From the NCBI GenBank assembly GCA_017432075.1, contig JAFRJV010000050.1, positions 1 through 47,695 on the forward strand: a stretch of 47,695 nucleotides of DNA. The letters are read 5' to 3'. A program made the position numbers and the translations under genes. Positions 28,807 through 38,224 of the stretch are shown piece after piece. Each line of letters opens with the position of its first letter. Positions within the stretch are counted from its first letter, which is position 1. The stretch comes from Mogibacterium sp. Its GTDB lineage: Bacteria; Bacillota; Clostridia; Peptostreptococcales; Anaerovoracaceae. The notes under the pieces are model-generated. The model was not told the origin of the DNA, did no database searches, and saw nothing but the letters and a program-made list of their open reading frames with translations.

Positions 28807-30573
28807 TCACTGTTTTTCTGTTTTTTCACGGCTGCTTTGCTTAAGAACACGTATGCACACATTGTTCAGATCGAAAGCATGCGAGTAATTGACGTTTTCT
28901 GCTGCAGCAAACACTATACGGAGCCCCATGCCGGAAGCCGGATCATCAGGATCAAGCAGTTTATACCGCTCCGTCAGATCAAACGGACGGCCGTTGTCAC
29001 GCAGGCGGAGTATGAGCCATCTTCCTATGATGATGAATCTGTATTCCATGTATTTTTCTCTGTCGTCCTTGAATCCGTGCAGAAGACTGTTTGCTGCGAG
29101 CTCTTCGAGGCAGAGCCCTATGTTGTACGCCTGCCTGTTGTCTACGCCGTTTTCCCGGCATAGACCTATCACCTTTTCGGAAGCTTCTGTAACCTGCTCC
29201 AGGGTCGTGATATCTCCGCGTATCTCAGCTATGAGACGGCCCAGCGCGGCAGCATCGGAGAAAGATCTACCATTCCTTCTCATTACATATTGCAGACAGG
29301 CAAATCCGATCGCAAGCACGATTTCATGAACTGCAAAAGCCGCAAATATTCCCGGTACGCCCCAATAGCGTCCAAGCAACAACGTGATAAGCACAGGAAG
29401 CGCAAGCTGGTTTATCAGTGTAAGTATGCTGGCTTCCTTTTGTTTGTCCAGACCCTGCAAGTATGCTCTGACGGAAAGATTAAAACACATGAACGGTACT
29501 CCGAGCAGATACCAGCGGAAAGCAGAGGCACTCAGCTCCTGAAGCATATAGTCTTTTGTAAACAGTTTCACTATAAGCGGTGCAGCCAACGCAAGTATAA
29601 CAGCCAGTACTGATCCGTTTATTGTGCAGCATCTCAGGATATCTCTTCTTTCCCTTCTCAAAGCCTCCATATCGTGCTCCGCTGCGAACATTCCTGTCAG
29701 CAGCAGTGTGGCAGTCATCACTCCCTCCCCAAGAGCAAGCGGCATATAGCGTACGGCATCCTGTATCGACAGGGCAGCAAGGCCGTTAATGCTGCCGTAG
29801 TGGAGCATCATGCGGTTGACTGCCATCGGATAAATGAACTCTCCCATAAATCTGACGGCCATTGGAAATCCCGTGATAAGAACAGCGGTGAGCATGCCTT
29901 TTACCATGTGCGGACGGCCAATATGGAAAATCGTTTTCCCCGAAAGAAGCTGTCCCCCCAGCACCAGACACGTGCACAGATATGCTGCAACGCTGGCGAT
30001 GGCTATGCCCCTGATACCTGCATCCAGATACACCGCAATCAGATCACCTATGATATCAGATACCAGTATAACGGCTATGGAAGCTGTGAGCCGCCTGTCT
30101 GCGCCTTCAAGCGCAGCTACTCCGCTGAGTACGATCTGCATGATCACCACAAGGTTCCCTGTCAGTATAGGTATCAGGTATGCTTTCACATCTTCATATA
30201 GAATCACATCCTCAGTGTAGTCGGCAAAGAATCCCGTGATCGTATCCGGAATAAGGATCGCTGCCAGCGTTAATATCAGGGATATCGCTGTAGCAGACAT
30301 GCAGACCCATACAAAGCACTGATTAGCCTCTGCCCTCTTCCCCTTTGCCAGGAACTTTGTGACCTGCACCGAAAGTCCGGTACTGAGTATGCTCCCGACC
30401 ATTAAAAGAATGGAAAACACAGGCATGGCAAGTTTCATTCCTGCCAGGCCTTCAGCTTCCCAGAATTGACCGACGATGACACTGTCCACTATTCCGGTTA
30501 TGGAAAGGACCAGCGCCTGTAACATGTGAATGAGTACTATCCGGCGGAAAAGACCGGATTGAAAACGTTCCAT
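28807..30573 (-). CDS. MATE-family transporter fused to an RsbW-like histidine-kinase-type ATPase domain
   Basis: This is a 588-residue fusion. Residues 1-437 form a 12-helix MATE/MatE multidrug-type exporter with internal duplication. Residues 438-588 are cytoplasmic and match the HATPase_c_2 (RsbW/SpoIIAB anti-sigma serine kinase) fold. The N box is CLEELAANSLLHG (about 488-500), the G1 box RDNGRPF (about 525-531) and the G2 box GMGLRIV (about 548-554). All three ATP-binding boxes look intact, so ATP binding is likely. Normal MATE proteins end near 450-460 residues. No STAS-domain antagonist or sigma factor is nearby. It is the last gene of the 28807-37280 run. Whether the domain gates transport or transmits a signal is open. 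Confidence 0.88.
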   Translation of the reverse strand: MERFQSGLFRRIVLIHMLQALVLSITGIVDSVIVGQFWEAEGLAGMKLAMPVFSILLMVGSILSTGLSVQVTKFLAKGKRAEANQCFVWVCMSATAISLILTLAAILIPDTITGFFADYTEDVILYEDVKAYLIPILTGNLVVIMQIVLSGVAALEGADRRLTASIAVILVSDIIGDLIAVYLDAGIRGIAIASVAAYLCTCLVLGGQLLSGKTIFHIGRPHMVKGMLTAVLITGFPMAVRFMGEFIYPMAVNRMMLHYGSINGLAALSIQDAVRYMPLALGEGVMTATLLLTGMFAAEHDMEALRRERRDILRCCTINGSVLAVILALAAPLIVKLFTKDYMLQELSASAFRWYLLGVPFMCFNLSVRAYLQGLDKQKEASILTLINQLALPVLITLLLGRYWGVPGIFAAFAVHEIVLAIGFACLQYVMRRNGRSFSDAAALGRLIAEIRGDITTLEQVTEASEKVIGLCRENGVDNRQAYNIGLCLEELAANSLLHGFKDDREKYMEYRFIIIGRWLILRLRDNGRPFDLTERYKLLDPDDPASGMGLRIVFAAAENVNYSHAFDLNNVCIRVLKQSSREKTEKQ

Positions 30574-30592
30574 CTTATAGCCCCTTTTCTTT

Positions 30593-31579
30593 TTACCCCT
30601 GTACGCGGAATCTGCTCATATCGACATTTCCGTTCTTTCTGAACTCAACTCCTTCTGCTTCGAGCAGTTCCCGCTGCTCTGTCCAGCCCGGCACAGTACG
30701 TCCGGCGCTGTTAACAACTCTGTGACAGGGATGATTCCCGAACCTGTCCTGCATGCTCATTATCTTTCCAACGAGACGTGCATTTTTCGGCCGCCCCATC
30801 AGCGCGGCTATCTGACCGTAGGACATCACCTTGCCCGGCGGTATGCTGTCAGCAATCTCAAGTGCTTCCCGTATCAGCTTCTCGTTGAGCACTCCAGACG
30901 CATCACTGGTAAGGCTGAAGCTCTCACCTACCAGATCCATCACGTCGCTGTCATCAAGCGTATCATCCAGAGTGACAGATATCCATTTGCTGTGGTTCAT
31001 GTGGAATGCGGGATAAATGCCGCGTATCTTATGCAGCGCCGCAGTCTTTGTTTCATCCGCCTTCAGATTTATCACATCGACGGTTTCCTCATCCGCACTT
31101 TTATCCAGATGGCGTCTGTCGATGTTCATTATAAGCCCGAACCATTTGTTGTTATTGCCATGCCGGAAGACACCCGCAGGGTTCTTCCCGTCCTCGTCCC
31201 ATGGGAAGTCAGGCTCCACGGAGTATCTGTCAAATATGGCAGCAGCTATGCGGTTGCTCTGATCCGAGACGAAAGTCACTTCAGTGCAGCACTTATCAGC
31301 GATATCAGAAAGGAGATTCACATATGACTCCCTGACAGAGCCGACAAATGCCCCCGTGTAGTTCGGCATCCTCAGAGGTAAGTATTCCTCCCCCATCATG
31401 TTGTCTATGACTCTGCCGCGTACGCTGCCATTCTCATACACTCTGATCTCAGCAGTAAAATCACCGTCCAGGAATTCTTTTGACAGTGAATAACATGCAT
31501 CCTTATTTGCAAATCCGTAGCCTTCCAGGCGTTTTGTACTGAAGCGTCTGCGGCTGAATATCTTCTGCTCGATCGTCAT
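30593..31579 (-). CDS. YjbR/MmcQ domain fused to an O6-alkylguanine-DNA alkyltransferase domain
   Basis: This is a 328-residue two-part protein. Residues up to about 225 match the YjbR/MmcQ (CyaY-like DNA-binding) family, including FRHGNNNKWFGLIM and AFHMNHSKWISVTLDD. Residues about 235-315 form a methylguanine methyltransferase domain: PPGKVMSYGQIAALMG, then NHPCHRVV with the acceptor Cys285, and WTEQRELLEAEGVEF. The N-terminal Ada-type domain is absent, so the YjbR part may supply DNA contacts. The gene lies 8 bp after an AlkD-like glycosylase, so the pair forms an alkylation-repair module. It has a poor ribosome site, suggesting translational coupling. Confidence 0.85.
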   Translation of the reverse strand: MTIEQKIFSRRRFSTKRLEGYGFANKDACYSLSKEFLDGDFTAEIRVYENGSVRGRVIDNMMGEEYLPLRMPNYTGAFVGSVRESYVNLLSDIADKCCTEVTFVSDQSNRIAAAIFDRYSVEPDFPWDEDGKNPAGVFRHGNNNKWFGLIMNIDRRHLDKSADEETVDVINLKADETKTAALHKIRGIYPAFHMNHSKWISVTLDDTLDDSDVMDLVGESFSLTSDASGVLNEKLIREALEIADSIPPGKVMSYGQIAALMGRPKNARLVGKIMSMQDRFGNHPCHRVVNSAGRTVPGWTEQRELLEAEGVEFRKNGNVDMSRFRVQG

Positions 31580-31587
31580 GTGGGGTC

Positions 31588-32268
31588 TTATTTTATCTTC
31601 AGGCTCCTGAGGTATGCTTTCTGTTCAGGCGTTATCCGGTAACTTTCAACCGATTTCTGTATTGCCTTGTTGTGGGTCCATTTATCCAGTTTCTTTTCTT
31701 CTATGAATCTGACAGCACTGTCATACTGCTTAGCAAGTGCCGTCGCAAAGTACCATGCGCGCATCATGTTCACATAATACTCATCTGATCTGATCTCAGC
31801 CACCATTTCAGGATATGAGACATCATAATCGTCCCCAAGAAAGTGCTCCATGAGCATGCCCACAGCAAATCTGACAGTGTATGTCTTATCCGATCGGAGC
31901 CAGTCTTTTATATGTACAAGAAGGTCATCCTTATTATTTCCGAATACTTTCGGTGACATCTGATCACAGGTTGCCCAGTTATCAACGAAAGGCAAAAACC
32001 TGCAGACGCCGCCCATGCATCTGTCATAATCTTTCATGCCTGAAAGTATGAAAGCATGCAGCTGGTTCTCATCGAAATGATCGTGCGGCAGCGCGTCAAG
32101 AAAAATGTCGATGTCATCCTTTTTCGACAGTTCCTTTGCCAGCCTTCGGAGCTCCGGGGTCCTTACACCTATCACTCTAGCGGGATCTGCCGTCGGTATA
32201 AGTTTCACCTGAAAGTCCCTGTATTTCTCATCACGGAGTTCAAACAGCCTTTTCTGTATATCCGTCAT
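31588..32268 (-). CDS. AlkD-like DNA alkylation repair protein (HEAT-like glycosylase)
   Basis: This 226-residue all-helical protein belongs to the DNA alkylation repair (AlkD/AlkC) family, which excises alkylated bases. The family segments are VIGVRTPELRRLAKEL near the N terminus, FVDNWATCDQMSPKVF with the functional Trp-Asp region, and WLRSDKTYTVRFAVGMLMEHFL. The ATG has AGAGG and AAAGGG just upstream. It is followed after 8 bp by the alkyltransferase fusion, which supports the functional call. Confidence 0.88.
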   Translation of the reverse strand: MTDIQKRLFELRDEKYRDFQVKLIPTADPARVIGVRTPELRRLAKELSKKDDIDIFLDALPHDHFDENQLHAFILSGMKDYDRCMGGVCRFLPFVDNWATCDQMSPKVFGNNKDDLLVHIKDWLRSDKTYTVRFAVGMLMEHFLGDDYDVSYPEMVAEIRSDEYYVNMMRAWYFATALAKQYDSAVRFIEEKKLDKWTHNKAIQKSVESYRITPEQKAYLRSLKIK

Positions 32269-32291
32269 CCCTTTAACCTCTCTGTGCCTTA

Positions 32292-33107
32292 CTACAGTTC
32301 AAATACCATGCCCGTTTTCAGTGCATGGACCTTGTCTCCAAGTTCATCGTGCAGAATGTTCCAGGCCTTTTGTCCGGTGCAGTGACCCGTGTAGATATGC
32401 ATGGCTCCGGCATCCTCCAGACGTTTAGCGAATGCCCTGACATATTCATCGCTTTTGTTGAACAGATGAAAACCTCCTATCATTGCGAGGATCTTTTTGT
32501 CCGGGTACACCTGCGCTGCTTCATTCACTATGTTGTCTGCACCGGCATGAGAGCAGCTGTTAAAGACGGCTATTCCGTCATCAGTCTCAAATATGAGGCT
32601 CTGCTCATGTCTGAAATCATCAGGTATGTATCTCATGAAGCCCTGCTTCAGATACATCTTTTCCATGAGTCCCAGCTTTTCGAGACCCGGTGTAGTGTGC
32701 CCCAGCAGTCTGATGCCGTCAGCGATCATCATGTCGGCATCAGCCTTAATGATCCTGTCCGCATGCCGGCTCATGATACCGCGCGGAACTCCGGCATACT
32801 TGAAGAAAAGGCCATGCCTGTCGTAACAGTTTTCTTCGCAGCCGCCTGCAACATACAGCATTGCGTGGTCATTCAGCTCAAAGAATTTCTCCAGCCCGTT
32901 GGCGTGATCATCATGCGCATGCGAAAGCACGGCATAGTCCACGTTGTTAAGGTCAAGGCCCATCCTGTCTGCGTTGACTGCAAACAGCGGTGAAAGCCCT
33001 GCATCGAGCAAAACGGTCTTTCCGTTGTATTCTATATAGAATGACAGACCCCATTCACCTTTCAGGCCGGAGCCGTCAGTATTGTCTACAAGTACATATA
33101 TCTTCAT
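32292..33107 (-). CDS. metallo-beta-lactamase fold hydrolase
   Basis: This 271-residue MBL-fold protein has the metal motif HxHxDH as SHAHDDHANG (His/Asp near residues 61-66). Later ligands are likely in FNSCSHAG and TGHCTGQKAW. The layout resembles the group annotated as 7,8-dihydropterin-6-yl-methyl-4-(beta-D-ribofuranosyl)aminobenzene 5'-phosphate synthase-like, a loose label that does not fix the substrate. The gene starts 5 bp after the MoxR-type ATPase gene, so it is almost certainly co-translated. A nuclease or nucleotide-hydrolase role with the neighbouring repair genes is conceivable but unproven. Confidence 0.85.
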   Translation of the reverse strand: MKIYVLVDNTDGSGLKGEWGLSFYIEYNGKTVLLDAGLSPLFAVNADRMGLDLNNVDYAVLSHAHDDHANGLEKFFELNDHAMLYVAGGCEENCYDRHGLFFKYAGVPRGIMSRHADRIIKADADMMIADGIRLLGHTTPGLEKLGLMEKMYLKQGFMRYIPDDFRHEQSLIFETDDGIAVFNSCSHAGADNIVNEAAQVYPDKKILAMIGGFHLFNKSDEYVRAFAKRLEDAGAMHIYTGHCTGQKAWNILHDELGDKVHALKTGMVFEL

Positions 33108-33112
33108 TTTTC

Positions 33113-34624
33113 TTACAGGTCCAGATCTTCTATCTCCCTGAGGATCTCGCTCTGTCTTTCATAGAACAGAAGCTCTTTGTTATGTTCAAAGTATTTGCTG
33201 CAGCCATGCCTGCTTATGTAGTGGGCTGAATAGAAACCTTTTGTAAGCTCAGTAACGATAATCAGCATTTCCGGTCCGTCCGCAAACACTTCTTCTGCAA
33301 AGTCGAACATGTTCTCAAGTTCCGAGTCGATCCAGGCTGTTTTCTTTATGTGCTCATCCCTTCTTTTGTTGAAGTCCGTTCTGAGGATCTCAAAAGCCTC
33401 GTCTCCCGTCGCTTCACCCGCCTGTACAATGGCTTTGGCCGAGGACTCCAGATCATTGATCGTGCCATGAAGTATCCTGCGTCTGTCGTCGGAGAGTGAA
33501 TTTGCCCTCTTGCCGGTATCCAGCTCACTGCGTTTCGCTGCGATCACATCATCAAGAAGCTGAAGCGCGGACACGGATGGCTCCCTGAGGCCTGCCTTTG
33601 TGCGGCTGAATATCTCACGCTCCCCGATCAGGATCTGTTCATCGTAATAATGCTGCCTGAGATCACTGCCGACACGGTCAAGTATCAGGCCGAGAAGCGA
33701 CAGTCTTTCATCGTATTTTGCAGATGAGGCACGGTCTTTGACATCACTGCCTGCCTTCCCGCTCAGGATATCGTCTATACGGTAGTCAGACCTGTATTTG
33801 TTGAACAGGTCATAGTAATTGGCGAAAGACTTGGAGACCTTTTTGTCCTGCAAATACTGGCTCACCATCTTTTCGTCGACATCTATGTCATTCTGCTCAT
33901 AGAGCCTGATCATATCGGACAGGTTCAGCCATGCCCTTGCGGTCACTATGCTCTTGCCTTCGACTGTTGATTCAACTCTGTAAAAGTCGCTGCTCTTGAT
34001 ATCGAGATAGGTCGATATCGACGGATGGACCCCGCGGTCCAGAGCATATTCCTTCCATATCTTATAGTCAGGTTCTATGTCTATGCGCTTAAGCCTGTCC
34101 CATGTTACCGTATCGAATTCACGCACGGAGTTGTTATATTCAGGCGGATTTCCGGCGGTTACAACGATCCAGCCGTCCGGCACACGGTGTCTGCCGAAGA
34201 TCTTATACTGCAGGAACTGCAGCATTGCCGGAGCGAGTGTCTCCGATACGCAGTTGATCTCATCGAGAAACAGTATGCCCTCTCTGACCCCGGTATCCTC
34301 CATCATATCGTAGACCGACGCGATGATCTCTGACATCGTATACTCTGAAACGCTGTACTCCTTGCCGCCATATGACTTTTTCGTGATATACGGAAGCCCC
34401 AGAGCAGACTGTCTGGTGTGGTGTGTCATGGAATATGAGACAAGCCCTACACCGAGCTCAGATGCGATCTGCTGCATTATGGCAGTCTTGCCTATGCCCG
34501 GAGGCCCCATAAGGAATACCGGCCTCTGATCTTCAGTGGCTATCTGATACTCCCCATACTCGTCCTTGGTGAAGTATGCGATTATGGCATTTTTGATCTG
34601 TTCCTTTGCGTCCTTGATATTCAC
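33113..34624 (-). CDS. MoxR-type AAA ATPase (RavA-like size), GTG start
   Basis: This is a 503-residue AAA+ protein. The Walker A motif is GPPGIGKT (40-47), the Walker B is GILFLDEIN, and the sensor-like segment is VVTAGNPPEYN. A long helical C-terminal region includes charged coil-forming stretches. I chose the GTG at 34624 because AGGAG lies eight bases upstream. An ATG at 34675 would overlap the VWA gene by 40 bp and has no ribosome site. MoxR ATPases act with a VWA partner as chaperones that remodel protein complexes or insert cofactors, and the VWA gene lies directly upstream. The sizes of the pair (503 and 460) resemble E. coli RavA-ViaA. Confidence 0.88.
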   Translation of the reverse strand: MNIKDAKEQIKNAIIAYFTKDEYGEYQIATEDQRPVFLMGPPGIGKTAIMQQIASELGVGLVSYSMTHHTRQSALGLPYITKKSYGGKEYSVSEYTMSEIIASVYDMMEDTGVREGILFLDEINCVSETLAPAMLQFLQYKIFGRHRVPDGWIVVTAGNPPEYNNSVREFDTVTWDRLKRIDIEPDYKIWKEYALDRGVHPSISTYLDIKSSDFYRVESTVEGKSIVTARAWLNLSDMIRLYEQNDIDVDEKMVSQYLQDKKVSKSFANYYDLFNKYRSDYRIDDILSGKAGSDVKDRASSAKYDERLSLLGLILDRVGSDLRQHYYDEQILIGEREIFSRTKAGLREPSVSALQLLDDVIAAKRSELDTGKRANSLSDDRRRILHGTINDLESSAKAIVQAGEATGDEAFEILRTDFNKRRDEHIKKTAWIDSELENMFDFAEEVFADGPEMLIIVTELTKGFYSAHYISRHGCSKYFEHNKELLFYERQSEILREIEDLDL

Positions 34625-34635
34625 GATGATATCTC

Positions 34636-36018
34636 CTATATTTCGTCGTCCTGCAGCACGAGCTTTATTGCCCACGGCGGTACTTCCGGATCCTTGTATT
34701 CGTCATCCAGAAAGACAAACGCAGTCTGGTATCCCGGTTTATGTGCGGGAAAGGTTCCGTAACCGTCAGTGAAATATATAAGTCCTCTGAGGTCTGAGAA
34801 CTCGCCCGCTTCGATCAGACTGTCCACAAGATCGAACACCGGCCTGAAATCGGTCCCCCCGAGACCGAGGATCTCCATGCTGTCTATATATCTGTCAAAC
34901 TCCTCCTCAGAGCTGATCTTAACATGCTCCTGTATGTCTGCATCACACTGAATGATGTGGATGTTGACACGCGAGAAGAAGCTTTCGGTCGATTTGAGTA
35001 TATTATATGTTTTCTGCAGGAATTTCTGAACAAGTTCGCCCGAAGTACTTGCTGAAGTATCGATGGCGACCACGAATTCCCGGATCCGCCTGCTTTCTTT
35101 GTACTCAAGCGGTTCTACCAGAGGCATGTTCTCATACAGGCTTAGTCCGTAAGTATAGAAAATATAGTCGAACTCCTCATCGTTTACGCCCAGGGTTTCA
35201 CCCAGCACGGAAAACTTTTTCAGGAAAGTGGTGTAATCGTACCTCTCGCGCGTGACTGCGTTGAGGCTCTGCATCAGGCTGCCGGCAGAATCGCCCTGCT
35301 CCTTAAAGATGGTTTCAAGCGCGTCCTGCACCTTCTCTGCAATATCCTTCCACTCTTCATCTATCCCCAGAGGCGGGGTCAGCAGTGAAGGGCCATCATC
35401 CGGCATATCCGGTTCTGCAGCATCATTTCCGCTCTGATCATCCTTTCCTGCGTCGCTGTCATTTCTATCATACCTTGGGCCGTGCCATCCGGAGTGGTCG
35501 TCAGACCGGAACATCTCTCCCAGTCTCTCTGCCTCTTCATCCGTGATGCCGGTCTCCAGAAAGTAGTGATATATCTTCTCTGCAGTAAGCATGTTCACGC
35601 CAGACCGTATCCTTTCGATCTCCGGTCTCTGAGCAGACTTTTTCTGATCATCCGTCGCATGCAAACCAAGATCGTTCATGGTGCTCTCGACCGCTATATC
35701 GCATGCCAGGTCCCAGAGATCCGGATCTGTCAAGGCACCTGTGAACATGTGACTGAATATGCAGTGAAGGATCACATGAAGATAATCGCGTGCCGGCTTC
35801 TCGTGATCGCTTCTGAAGCTCCTGAGTACATGCTTCGGTCCGTAAATCAGTCTGACACCGTCAGTTGCGAGCGTAGCGCCATCCAAAGGGACCGGCTCCA
35901 GCCTGCTCATCGCGATATCCAGGAAGCGGAACCTGACGATCAGCATGCTGCGTGCAAGAACCATTACATCCTTAGCGGCTTTATTTATAAGATTGTTGTT
36001 TTCGGTACCGTTAGTCAT
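34636..36018 (-). CDS. VWA-like domain protein (DUF2201-type), partner of the MoxR ATPase
   Basis: This is a 460-residue protein. The N-terminal half has LHVILHCIFSHMF, at the place where DUF2201 proteins carry a putative HExxH-like metalloprotease motif. Glu is missing here, so peptidase activity is doubtful. A low-complexity acidic linker (about 180-215) follows. The C-terminal von Willebrand A domain has an intact MIDAS: D320-T-S322-A-S324, Thr389 in GGTDF and Asp418 in FTDGYG. The start overlaps the LRR gene stop (ATGA) and has GAGG upstream. The domain probably recruits substrate to the ATPase encoded next. Confidence 0.88.
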   Translation of the reverse strand: MTNGTENNNLINKAAKDVMVLARSMLIVRFRFLDIAMSRLEPVPLDGATLATDGVRLIYGPKHVLRSFRSDHEKPARDYLHVILHCIFSHMFTGALTDPDLWDLACDIAVESTMNDLGLHATDDQKKSAQRPEIERIRSGVNMLTAEKIYHYFLETGITDEEAERLGEMFRSDDHSGWHGPRYDRNDSDAGKDDQSGNDAAEPDMPDDGPSLLTPPLGIDEEWKDIAEKVQDALETIFKEQGDSAGSLMQSLNAVTRERYDYTTFLKKFSVLGETLGVNDEEFDYIFYTYGLSLYENMPLVEPLEYKESRRIREFVVAIDTSASTSGELVQKFLQKTYNILKSTESFFSRVNIHIIQCDADIQEHVKISSEEEFDRYIDSMEILGLGGTDFRPVFDLVDSLIEAGEFSDLRGLIYFTDGYGTFPAHKPGYQTAFVFLDDEYKDPEVPPWAIKLVLQDDEI

Positions 36019-37280
36019 AGTTCCTCAAGCAGCGGATCACCGTGCCAGTCAAGTTTTGACTGATATTCAAGCAGCAAGGCAGTACACTCGGATGCGGACA
36101 ATGACATTGAATAGTCGAGAAGTTTTATGATACTGCCCCTGCTTATTAGGCCTTTTTCGCAAAGATACGAAAGCACATCTGTATTTCTTTCCCATACGGT
36201 CCTGCGCGCTATCCTGTCCGCATGGACGCGCAGATAAGCGGAATAATCCTCCCTTGCCCTATCGCTCAGCTGAAACGGGTATTTCAGCCGCATGACCGCA
36301 GTCTTATCCCTGCAGCGCTGGTTCCAGCTCATTGCAGAGAACAGCACGGTGTCAAGCTTCATATAGTCAAATGTATTGTCTGCTCTGAATGCATCGATGA
36401 GATCACTTCGCATCTGAGGATCCATATCGCAGAACAAAGGTATAAATCCGACTGTCTTATCAGTTCCGTCATCCAGCACTGTTACATCTATAGCGCTCTC
36501 ATACATGTAAAAGTGCTCATCCTCGCCCTCTTTTTCCGGAACGATACGGTCATTACGGAAGTAATTCCTGAATTCATAAAGCATTGAATTATATATGCTG
36601 ACTTTCTTTTTTGTGTCGACAGGTCCTAAACAGTTACCACCTATATGGCTGACACTTCCCGGAATAACCAGACCCGGCAGCACTCTTTCGAAAGCTTCAT
36701 CGCCTATGCTCTGCAATGTGTCCGGCAAAACTGCCGGTTCAAATAAAGCGCACCTCCGGAAAGCCCCGTCGCCGATCTTTTCCAGATCACCGAATCTAAC
36801 ATATGACAGCTCCCTGCATCCTGCAAAAGCCTCTTCATGTATCACTCTCGCGCCGCTGATATCGGCATTTACCAGTGATGTGCAATAGCCAAAGAGTGAA
36901 GAAGGGATCTCTTCGAACCAATGCAGATCGGCGTGTTTCAGACCTGTGTGGGAGAATGCTCCGGTACCGGCTTTCGTAAGTGAGTGTGGTATTTCAGGCA
37001 AATCCAGATTTCCGCAGTGAAAGAACGCCAGGTCCCCTATTTCAGTTATGTTTCCGAATGTGACACTTTTCAGGGAACGGCAGAATTCAAAAGCTCCGGT
37101 ACCGATCACCGAGACACTGCTCATTATGACCGATTCCAGATTTGTACAGTCCTGAAAGGCAAATGCCCCAATGCTCTCTGCGTTTCTCAGATCAATATGC
37201 TTCAGGCTCTTATTTCCGGCAAAGGCTCCGTCTGCTATCGCCGTTACATCTTCGGGGATCACATAATACTCGTCATTCAT
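36015..37280 (-). CDS. cytoplasmic BspA-type leucine-rich repeat protein
   Basis: This is a 421-residue protein without a signal peptide or membrane segment. Residues about 5-225 form LRR_5 (BspA/TpLRR) repeats with the recurring pattern I-x-x-x-A-F-x-x-C-x-x-L-x-x-V (AIADGAFAGNKSL, SIGAFAFQDCTNL, VIGTGAFEFCRSL and others). The C-terminal 200 residues are helical (VMRLKYPFQLSDRAREDY, then LLDYSMSLSASECTALLLEY) and end in an acidic tail. BspA repeats usually occur on secreted or surface proteins. Here the product should stay inside, and its stop overlaps the VWA start. It may serve as a substrate adaptor or sensor for the ATPase-VWA pair. That role is inferred. Confidence 0.87.
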   Translation of the reverse strand: MNDEYYVIPEDVTAIADGAFAGNKSLKHIDLRNAESIGAFAFQDCTNLESVIMSSVSVIGTGAFEFCRSLKSVTFGNITEIGDLAFFHCGNLDLPEIPHSLTKAGTGAFSHTGLKHADLHWFEEIPSSLFGYCTSLVNADISGARVIHEEAFAGCRELSYVRFGDLEKIGDGAFRRCALFEPAVLPDTLQSIGDEAFERVLPGLVIPGSVSHIGGNCLGPVDTKKKVSIYNSMLYEFRNYFRNDRIVPEKEGEDEHFYMYESAIDVTVLDDGTDKTVGFIPLFCDMDPQMRSDLIDAFRADNTFDYMKLDTVLFSAMSWNQRCRDKTAVMRLKYPFQLSDRAREDYSAYLRVHADRIARRTVWERNTDVLSYLCEKGLISRGSIIKLLDYSMSLSASECTALLLEYQSKLDWHGDPLLEEL

Positions 37281-37407: not shown

Positions 37408-37435
37408 TATGATAGAGACTGAATTGGAGACATTT

Positions 37436-38224
37436 ATGGCTAAGACAGTATTGCAGAAAGAAATAGACAGACTTGGGCGGGCTGAGAGACGGTTTCTCAA
37501 AAAGCAGCTGAACAGGGAGCCAACCAGGCTCGACCTGCTTCTTGAAGAAAAGGTCCCGGAAAAGCTGGAAGCAACTCTTGATGCAGCCTTCTCCAAAGCT
37601 TTTCATTTTATTTTTTCCAAAGGCTCCTCGATAATAAGTAAAACTTTCTCAACAGAAAAGCTGATAGATGAGTTTGAATCCGATACTGCCAGTCTGGAAG
37701 AAATCGGAGGCAGAAAGCAGATGCGGAAGTTCAGCCGCCGCGCAGCCGCCACCGGGACTACTCATACTCTGGTCTCTACAGTAGCAGGTACCGCTCTGGG
37801 ATTTGCAGGCGGGATGATCCCGGGCATAGTGGTTTTTATTACTCTTCTTCTCCGTAATATTTATCAGATATCCATGAAATACGGATACTCTTTTGATACC
37901 GATGAAGAAAAGAAGTTTATTCTCAGGGTAATCACCGCTGCTGTGCAGGACGGTGACGATATGTTACATGCAAATAAGGCAGTCAACAGACTCATCAGGG
38001 AGGGCCTCTCCTGCGATGACAGTACTTTAGATGAGAGAATAAATGAAGCAGCCGTGGCTCTTGCCCACGCACTGCTTCTGATGAAATTTCTTCAAAATAT
38101 ACCTGTCGTCGGTGCTATCGGAGGAGCATCCGATTTTGTTTATATGGAAAGGATAAGCGATTATGCCGTGCTGAAGTATCAGCGCCGGTTCCTTGTGGAC
38201 CAGTTAAGAAGCGGCCGTCACTGA
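37436..38224 (+). CDS. EcsC-family protein
   Basis: This 262-residue protein matches the EcsC family of uncharacterised Firmicute proteins. A charged helical N terminus is followed by a glycine-rich hydrophobic segment (TVAGTALGFAGGMIPGIVVFITLLLRN, in two parts about 115-145) that may insert in the membrane, then a helical domain ending in a second Gly-rich stretch (FLQNIPVVGAIGGASDFVYM). I chose the ATG at 37436 because GGAG lies six bases upstream. An in-frame ATG at 37409 lacks one. It diverges from the LRR operon and its 3' end overlaps the convergent lipoprotein gene by 21 bp. Confidence 0.82.
   Translation: MAKTVLQKEIDRLGRAERRFLKKQLNREPTRLDLLLEEKVPEKLEATLDAAFSKAFHFIFSKGSSIISKTFSTEKLIDEFESDTASLEEIGGRKQMRKFSRRAAATGTTHTLVSTVAGTALGFAGGMIPGIVVFITLLLRNIYQISMKYGYSFDTDEEKKFILRVITAAVQDGDDMLHANKAVNRLIREGLSCDDSTLDERINEAAVALAHALLLMKFLQNIPVVGAIGGASDFVYMERISDYAVLKYQRRFLVDQLRSGRH

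Follow-up and report, generated by a model that had tools for sequence, protein, structure and literature searches.

We identified a conserved three-gene module in a 47.7-kb Mogibacterium sp. contig (JAFRJV010000050.1, 47,695 nucleotides, analysed at its full length and called the window here; host genome 2.75 Mb, 83% complete). The module encodes a leucine-rich repeat (LRR) protein, a von Willebrand factor A (VWA) protein and a MoxR-like AAA+ ATPase, and sequence comparison indicates that the three genes are a conserved set in Clostridia. We read it as a three-part, ATP-driven protein-remodelling machine for enzyme maturation with a plug-in client adaptor, and put the probability of this reading at roughly one half (0.52). 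By analogy with NorQ/NorD, a MoxR ring and the VWA protein would form the motor; the C-terminal tail of the LRR protein would dock the adaptor onto it, the LRR face would bind the client protein, and the machine would then open or activate a cofactor-bearing enzyme. Clients are proposed because three paralogous clades of the module are each found beside a single kind of redox enzyme. The window copy itself is free-standing, with no linked client. The nearest named relatives of the window are rumen and gut assemblies (Mogibacterium sp., uncultured Clostridiales).

The module occupies the first three positions of a run of seven open reading frames (ORFs) on the minus strand, from 37280 down to 28807. 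The ORF coordinates reproduced the layout described in a first-pass annotation of this DNA, with seven genes on one strand and junction gaps of -4, 11, 5, 23, 8 and 19 bp (the MoxR gene starting with GTG at 34624). The absence of terminators between the genes was likewise borne out: a minus-strand scan found no terminator-like pattern in the junctions, three within the run that each lie inside coding sequence, and a strong site at 27668-27645, past the next helix-turn-helix (HTH) gene downstream. A promoter scan gave 9 hits against 16.5 expected by shuffling and identified no promoter for the module. The Pfam families were, in gene order, LRR_5; DUF2201_N and DUF2201 (VWA-like); AAA_5; Lactamase_B; DNA_alkylation; YjbR with a methylguanine methyltransferase (MGMT) DNA-binding domain; and MatE with HATPase_c_2. 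They match the earlier naming of the last four genes as a metallo-beta-lactamase (MBL) hydrolase, AlkD, an alkyltransferase fusion and a MATE-ATPase fusion. The seven genes are two units, and the real unit is LRR-VWA-MoxR.

The LRR protein (36015..37280, minus strand, 421 aa) carries BspA-type LRR_5 repeats in about its first 220 residues (E 1.2e-37), followed by a non-LRR C-terminal part. Hydropathy scanning, a simple method and no substitute for signal-peptide prediction, picked up no hydrophobic stretch at the N terminus, and the protein is probably cytoplasmic, as had been proposed. In the VWA protein (34636..36018, minus strand, 460 aa), both DUF2201_N and DUF2201 (PF13203, PF09967) scored above their cut-offs; it consists of an inactive metallopeptidase-like N-terminal domain and a VWA domain, and Pfam found no fused effector domain. 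The ATPase (33113..34624, minus strand, 503 aa) matched AAA_5 above the cut-off (E 1.9e-9) and bpMoxR weakly, below it (E 9.5e-6). In its translated sequence, we take GPPGIGKT (34484..34507, minus strand) to be the Walker A motif and ILFLDE (34259..34276, minus strand) to be Walker B. An AAA_5 ATPase with Walker A and B beside a VWA protein with an intact metal ion-dependent adhesion site (MIDAS) corresponds to a MoxR AAA+/VWA couple in the broad sense.

The linkage of the three genes extends well beyond chance, whereas that of all seven is local to close relatives. Two sets of loci were used. Named loci were the best 80 of at least 536 confirmed from a pattern scan, with a bias towards close relatives; the second set consisted of 60 stretches of at most 20 kb, each centred on a VWA homologue in a relative of the window's genome. 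LRR genes were counted among genes of at least 100 aa in 77 of the 80 named loci (L137, L143 and L147, in which no module gene was picked, were left out). They made up 60 of 146 genes at distance 1 from the VWA or AAA gene, 21 of 108 at distance 2 and only 3 of 272 at distance 6 or more, as expected if the three genes form one module, which the first-pass annotation had claimed. Among 55 relatives' loci, with L086-L090 counted apart, the count was 35 of 111 at distance 1, and LRR genes peaked again at distance 5 (11 of 73), which corresponds to one operon type (type B, below); no LRR gene was found near the VWA/AAA genes of L086-L090. ORFs were picked greedily by length, and antisense ORFs hid some real genes: XdhA in L127 and L131, recovered by tblastn, and AlkD in L035.

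Co-occurrence in a fixed order had been suggested as a check on the module, and the outcome was split. The LRR-VWA-AAA set recurs, but its order is not kept: of the 124 rows of a tree of the AAA proteins (a quick tree, with long branches flagged), 59 have a simple arrangement, which is LRR-VWA-AAA in 22, VWA-LRR-AAA in 19 and VWA-AAA-LRR in 18. The order follows the tree, needing 9 changes where shuffling gave a mean of 28.3 and at least 22. Modules were grouped into type A, the window's kind; type B, within a corrinoid operon; and type C, with FAD oxidoreductase neighbours. Genomes were assigned to these types by our reading of homologue coordinates, RACo and tail results; the 17 type A genomes include that of the window, and a second, cut type A fragment in G012 (contig C80) was not counted. 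In some genomes, such as G042 with L031, L062 and L081, three module types occur together, and each of them brings its own LRR protein.

Several loci show other arrangements. At least three different LRR proteins surround one VWA/AAA pair in L097, L098, L109, L112 and L119, as if several adaptors served one motor. In L118 (6687-11512), which has the look of a conflict system, a SIR2_2 domain gene lies between the LRR and AAA genes; no VWA gene was found on this stretch, whose contig data end soon after. Behind the module of L096 (11705-16389) lie a HEPN_Swt1 protein and a 977-aa protein with parts like the RNA polymerase alpha C-terminal domain and sigma-70 region 4.

Profile searches revealed a feature common to the third components. 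In the window LRR protein, a tail of about 80 residues (36060..36299, minus strand) has no Pfam match and is ankyrin-like; we propose that the system's adaptors have it in common and dock through it. A first profile, made from the post-repeat region of the window protein, matched LRR proteins of other module types, some weakly. After iteration to 79 positions it matched 107 of 118 module-adjacent LRR proteins, a count that is partly built in since the iteration used the module loci themselves, and only 1 of 469 genes located at least seven genes from a module. The iterated profile also located the tail in twelve LRR proteins of type B, encoded five or six genes further downstream. The tail was found, too, in ankyrin proteins that occupy the same slot (L059, L103, L120) and in DUF6273-containing or related proteins in that slot (L129, L132, L133, L139). 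Duplicate contigs (L092, for instance, equals L032) were kept in the tail-adjacency counts and dropped by sequence from the AAA tree and the glutamate table described below. The PDB entries that matched it best were ankyrins (E 3e-6), so that the tail probably represents a degenerate pair of ankyrin repeats, and true ankyrin proteins could match the profile partly through this ankyrin nature.

Whole-genome searches of 47 genus and 398 phylum genomes gave a fairer test. The tail is present in 29 of the 47 genus genomes, exactly the same 29 that carry a VWA homologue (Fisher 2e-13, not corrected for kinship), against 42 of 47 for LRR_5, which has 25 matches in the window's genome alone. In the phylum set, the tail was found in 5 of 7 genomes with a VWA match above 150 bits and in 3 of the 391 others (E 4e-5 to 1e-3); one of the two misses among the seven, G472, carries it by the iterated profile (L238). 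These profile matches indicate that, as a rule, the third component joins one shared tail to a recognition domain that varies (LRR or, in some cases, ankyrin or DUF6273). The earlier suggestion that the LRR protein selects targets is kept as the best reading. The position of the LRR gene varies, but the tail goes with the module. The idea that type A LRR repeats evolve faster than the tail was dropped, the mean pairwise identity of six sequences being 57% in the repeats and 54% in the tail.

Alignment shows that the VWA proteins of the LRR-linked branch have lost the protease glutamate and kept three histidines and the MIDAS. In the window protein the HExxH site reads HVILHCIFSH (HxxxHxxxxH; 35749..35778, minus strand), with the glutamate lost and the three histidines retained. 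H81, H85 and H90 are invariant in 57 of 57 aligned sequences, as are D107 and E111, and no sequence has a glutamate at position 82; the HExxH of DUF2201 metallopeptidases is thus missing throughout this set. The MIDAS motif DTSAS (35047..35061, minus strand), with T389 and D418 further on, follows the DxSxS-T-D pattern of PMC9976466 (this and the other PMC articles are cited from excerpts), and D320, S322, S324, T389 and D418 are invariant in all 57 rows. HExxH is retained in eight LRR-free relatives (L086-L090, L244, L245, L248). A tail protein lies within seven genes of 97 of 117 glutamate-less VWA proteins and of none of the 8 glutamate-bearing ones; seven VWA ORFs for which the motif could not be located were left out of this table.

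The enzymes beside the paralogous modules point to possible clients. Type B forms a 16-row clade of the AAA tree (support 100), 15 rows of which carry the corrinoid label. Its operon, Pfam-tested in L046 and L062, encodes a HEM4/tetrapyrrole methylase (CobA-HemD-like), a tetrapyrrole methylase, an ABC transporter, NAD_binding_7, URO-D methyltransferase-like proteins, a B12-binding protein, RACo and DUF1638, and a tailed LRR protein lies within the same gene run in 12 of the 16 rows. Every one of the 18 genus genomes in which a type B VWA gene was placed has RACo, vs 5 of the 29 others, which partly restates the operon linkage. Type C is a 13-row group in which VWA, LRR and AAA genes stand beside an FAD oxidoreductase and a NAD/FAD/2Fe-2S reductase (Pfam-tested in L072; weaker identity, 33-62%, in L146 and L151). 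A third clade, the XDH type, has five rows from different Clostridial families (support 100): L070 2002-12742, L127 1184-13608, L128 2033-12711, L131 2018-13305 and L140 4-7737. XdhA lies directly ahead of VWA-LRR-AAA in all five, and a gene of about 160 aa (no Pfam match where tested, in L070 and L128) and a trigger-factor-like gene, which may encode a dedicated chaperone, lie behind. XdhB and XdhC precede XdhA in four of them; the fifth, L140, is cut inside XdhA by the contig end. Because this neighbourhood is complete in all five loci as far as the contigs reach, it raised our support for the maturation machine. Mapped on the AAA tree, the labels assigned to 42 of its 124 rows, three for clients and two for third components, required 5 changes, against a mean of 21.3 and a minimum of 16 in 500 shuffles. 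In a Pfam tally, Fer2 occurred in 6 of 96 proteins near the module and was not among the 25 of 127 control families listed; this is a weak test on which we do not rely, the 96 having been hand-picked from 163 (passing over loci like the window's, corrinoid loci, previously tested proteins and some more), with a random 96 of 255 as controls.

One further locus touches the molybdenum enzymes. In L089 (genome G006, contig C55), an LRR-free DUF2201/AAA pair with HExxH is separated by three genes' distance from a weak homologue of XdhA (28%), a hint that modules of this kind may have been linked to molybdenum hydroxylases before the LRR part was added.

A number of observations weigh against the maturation machine. 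The redox-client label applies to only 35 of the 124 tree rows (corrinoid 17, FAD 13 and XDH 5, with L140 added later), is weak at L154, L056 and L144, and no linked client was found in any type A row. Ten further neighbours that were tested include a HEPN protein, SbcC/SbcD, a glycosidase and a tetratricopeptide repeat protein, and two had no match. The markers are not perfectly coupled: 11 of the 118 module LRR proteins have no tail match, 20 of the 117 glutamate-less VWA proteins have no tail partner (in part at contig ends; one of the 20 is the distant LRR-free relative L246), and in G012 a tail resembling that of type B occurs without any RACo match. RACo is absent from 7 of the 17 type A genomes and MoCoBD_2 from 3; unless this reflects the incomplete assemblies, neither RACo enzymes nor molybdenum hydroxylases are likely type A clients, and we set both aside without regarding this as final. 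Simple enzyme maturation also does not explain the multi-LRR arrays or the SIR2-containing L118.

The first-pass annotation had favoured a stress or damage-response unit of all seven genes, including the repair genes downstream. The tight spacing in the window fits such a unit, as does the position of MGMT, which by coordinates lies tightly behind the module in 7 of the 17 type A genomes and within 10 kb in four more (G010, in a shorter form; G023; G025; and G029, only 58% identical). It lies elsewhere than the type A module in four others (G024, G037, G040, G022) and cannot be placed in G007 and G001, which have short contigs. A counter-example is locus L201 of G024. It keeps the flank order of the window (CorA-like transporter, ARMT1-like gene, amidohydrolase, radical-SAM gene, divergent EcsC) and continues with MBL, AlkD, MGMT, MATE fragments, HTH, RID, PFK and FeoB, at 80-93% protein identity along the locus and with no module between the same flanks. 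An isoprenylcysteine-methyltransferase-like domain gene stands at the expected module site, and the module of G024 is on another contig (L041). AlkD moreover adjoins MGMT in G003 and G038 and lies 2 kb from it in G002, three genomes in which no VWA homologue was found, and a search of 34 loci of type B, type C and the XDH type turned up no homologue of the window MBL, AlkD or MGMT proteins at E 1e-4. We therefore rejected the seven-gene functional unit and consider an alkylation-damage role of the whole run very improbable. The repair genes are probably neighbours of the module, not parts of it, and may be co-transcribed with it. The vicinity of MGMT, kept in 11 of 17 genomes, suggests an old chromosomal site, at which there may be some co-regulation.

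Two other explanations concern the module itself. It could be a conflict system, anti-phage or kin-recognition, akin to the MoxR-vWA ternary systems, in which the LRR or ankyrin protein senses an invader and MoxR-VWA sets the threshold. These systems are the nearest that we found described (PMC7159879, PMC8195603; the excerpts of PMC11090510 concern other systems). They share the MoxR-vWA core and vary the third component around it (PMC8195603), and the weak bpMoxR match, the arrays of several LRR proteins, the SIR2_2 gene of L118 and the HEPN_Swt1 gene of L096 agree with such a role. Their third components are, however, VMAP, iSTAND, beta-propeller (a type taken from the Pfam name bpMoxR) or TERNS3 and not LRR_5 with an ankyrin-like tail; effector fusions, typical there if not universal, are lacking in the window VWA protein; and the excerpts of PMC8195603 describe them mainly from multicellular bacteria. 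PADLOC gave only short ATPase matches for the three module proteins, and three clades of the module lie inside metabolic gene runs. On balance we find a conflict system unlikely. Less likely still is that the VWA protein delivers metal, the kept histidines of the dead protease site holding an ion for apo-enzymes and the LRR protein only positioning the client. The invariance of the histidines, D107 and E111 alongside the missing glutamate agrees with this, as do two client groups whose families carry corrinoid or molybdenum/Fe-S cofactors; yet the histidines may be structural remains, and the flavoenzymes beside type C may need no metal at that step.

The maturation machine is modelled on MoxR/VWA pairs that remodel enzymes for cofactor insertion or reactivation, such as NorQ/NorD (PMC9976466) and CoxD/CoxE (PMC4240915, PMC2997495). 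NorQ/NorD and CbbQ/CbbO likewise combine a MoxR ATPase with a VWA protein with an intact MIDAS (PMC9976466). They differ in that here the N-terminal part of the VWA protein is a dead DUF2201 metallopeptidase and a separate LRR or ankyrin adaptor with a common tail is added. The AAA+ and VWA proteins CoxD and CoxE assemble the metal site of CO dehydrogenase, a molybdenum hydroxylase (PMC4240915), and the XDH-type modules lie next to members of that enzyme superfamily. For CoxD/CoxE, the abstract of that article mentions neither an LRR protein nor a tail component, and a trigger-factor-like gene follows here. On the ternary conflict systems, the main text of PMC7159879 has 'LRR' only once, within a reference, and never uses 'leucine-rich'. 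In searches of the open PMC library we recognised no description of an LRR- or ankyrin-guided MoxR/VWA system.

The window pair had also been likened to RavA/ViaA of E. coli. The sizes of those proteins do resemble the window ATPase and VWA protein, a likeness of size only. Kinship by family did not hold, and we rejected it: Pfam assigns the pair to DUF2201 and AAA_5, and neither RavA nor ViaA appeared in Pfam, NCBIfam or the best 60 of 78 PDB matches, tests that did not include a direct sequence comparison with RavA/ViaA. RavA/ViaA is not known to have a third component. That system is also an operon pair of a MoxR ATPase and a VWA protein (PMC10585395, PMC9489729), with the difference that the window VWA family is DUF2201.

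Important enzymes depend on MoxR/VWA pairs for their maturation, and the excerpts cited here do not settle what leads a pair to its client; the NorD N-terminal domain is only presumed to confer specificity (PMC9976466). In the modules described here, specificity appears to be placed in a separate, exchangeable repeat protein with a recognisable tail, so that client choice could be tested by adaptor swaps. A wider proposal, which we advance tentatively, is that gut and rumen Clostridia use a plug-in activase platform, in which one design of MoxR/dead-protease-VWA motor, present in several copies per genome, is aimed at different cofactor enzymes by an exchangeable repeat protein (LRR, ankyrin or DUF6273) with a shared docking tail. 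If true, the tail would be a sequence handle for finding new clients, including corrinoid methyltransferase reactivation alongside RACo, and a possible route to the machines by which anaerobes activate their molybdenum hydroxylases, corrinoid methyltransferases and flavoenzymes.

The neighbours of the window module are placed as follows. A divergent EcsC-family gene (37409..38224, plus strand), also kept at the module-free locus L201, marks the upstream boundary. Outside the module on the minus strand lie the MBL-fold hydrolase (32292..33107), which adjoins AlkD-MGMT without the module in L201, the AlkD-like DNA_alkylation protein (31588..32268), the YjbR and methylguanine methyltransferase-like fusion (30593..31579) and the MATE transporter and HATPase fusion (28807..30573), assigned from Pfam and the relatives' loci. 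In L201 (11270-11529), only two short fragments of the MATE-HATPase protein matched, against full-length matches of its neighbours. Shorter MGMT homologues (frames of 206-232 aa; G007:C160, G010:C35, G040:C66) match about the first 100 and the last 100 residues of the window protein and not its YjbR middle. Directly upstream of three type A modules (L039, L041, L044) is a DUF134 and Nitro_FeMo-Co protein of 243-244 aa, Pfam-tested in L039 only, and an amidohydrolase, Pfam-tested in L031 only, lies just upstream of those in L031, L034, L035 and L043, with one ORF between in L034.

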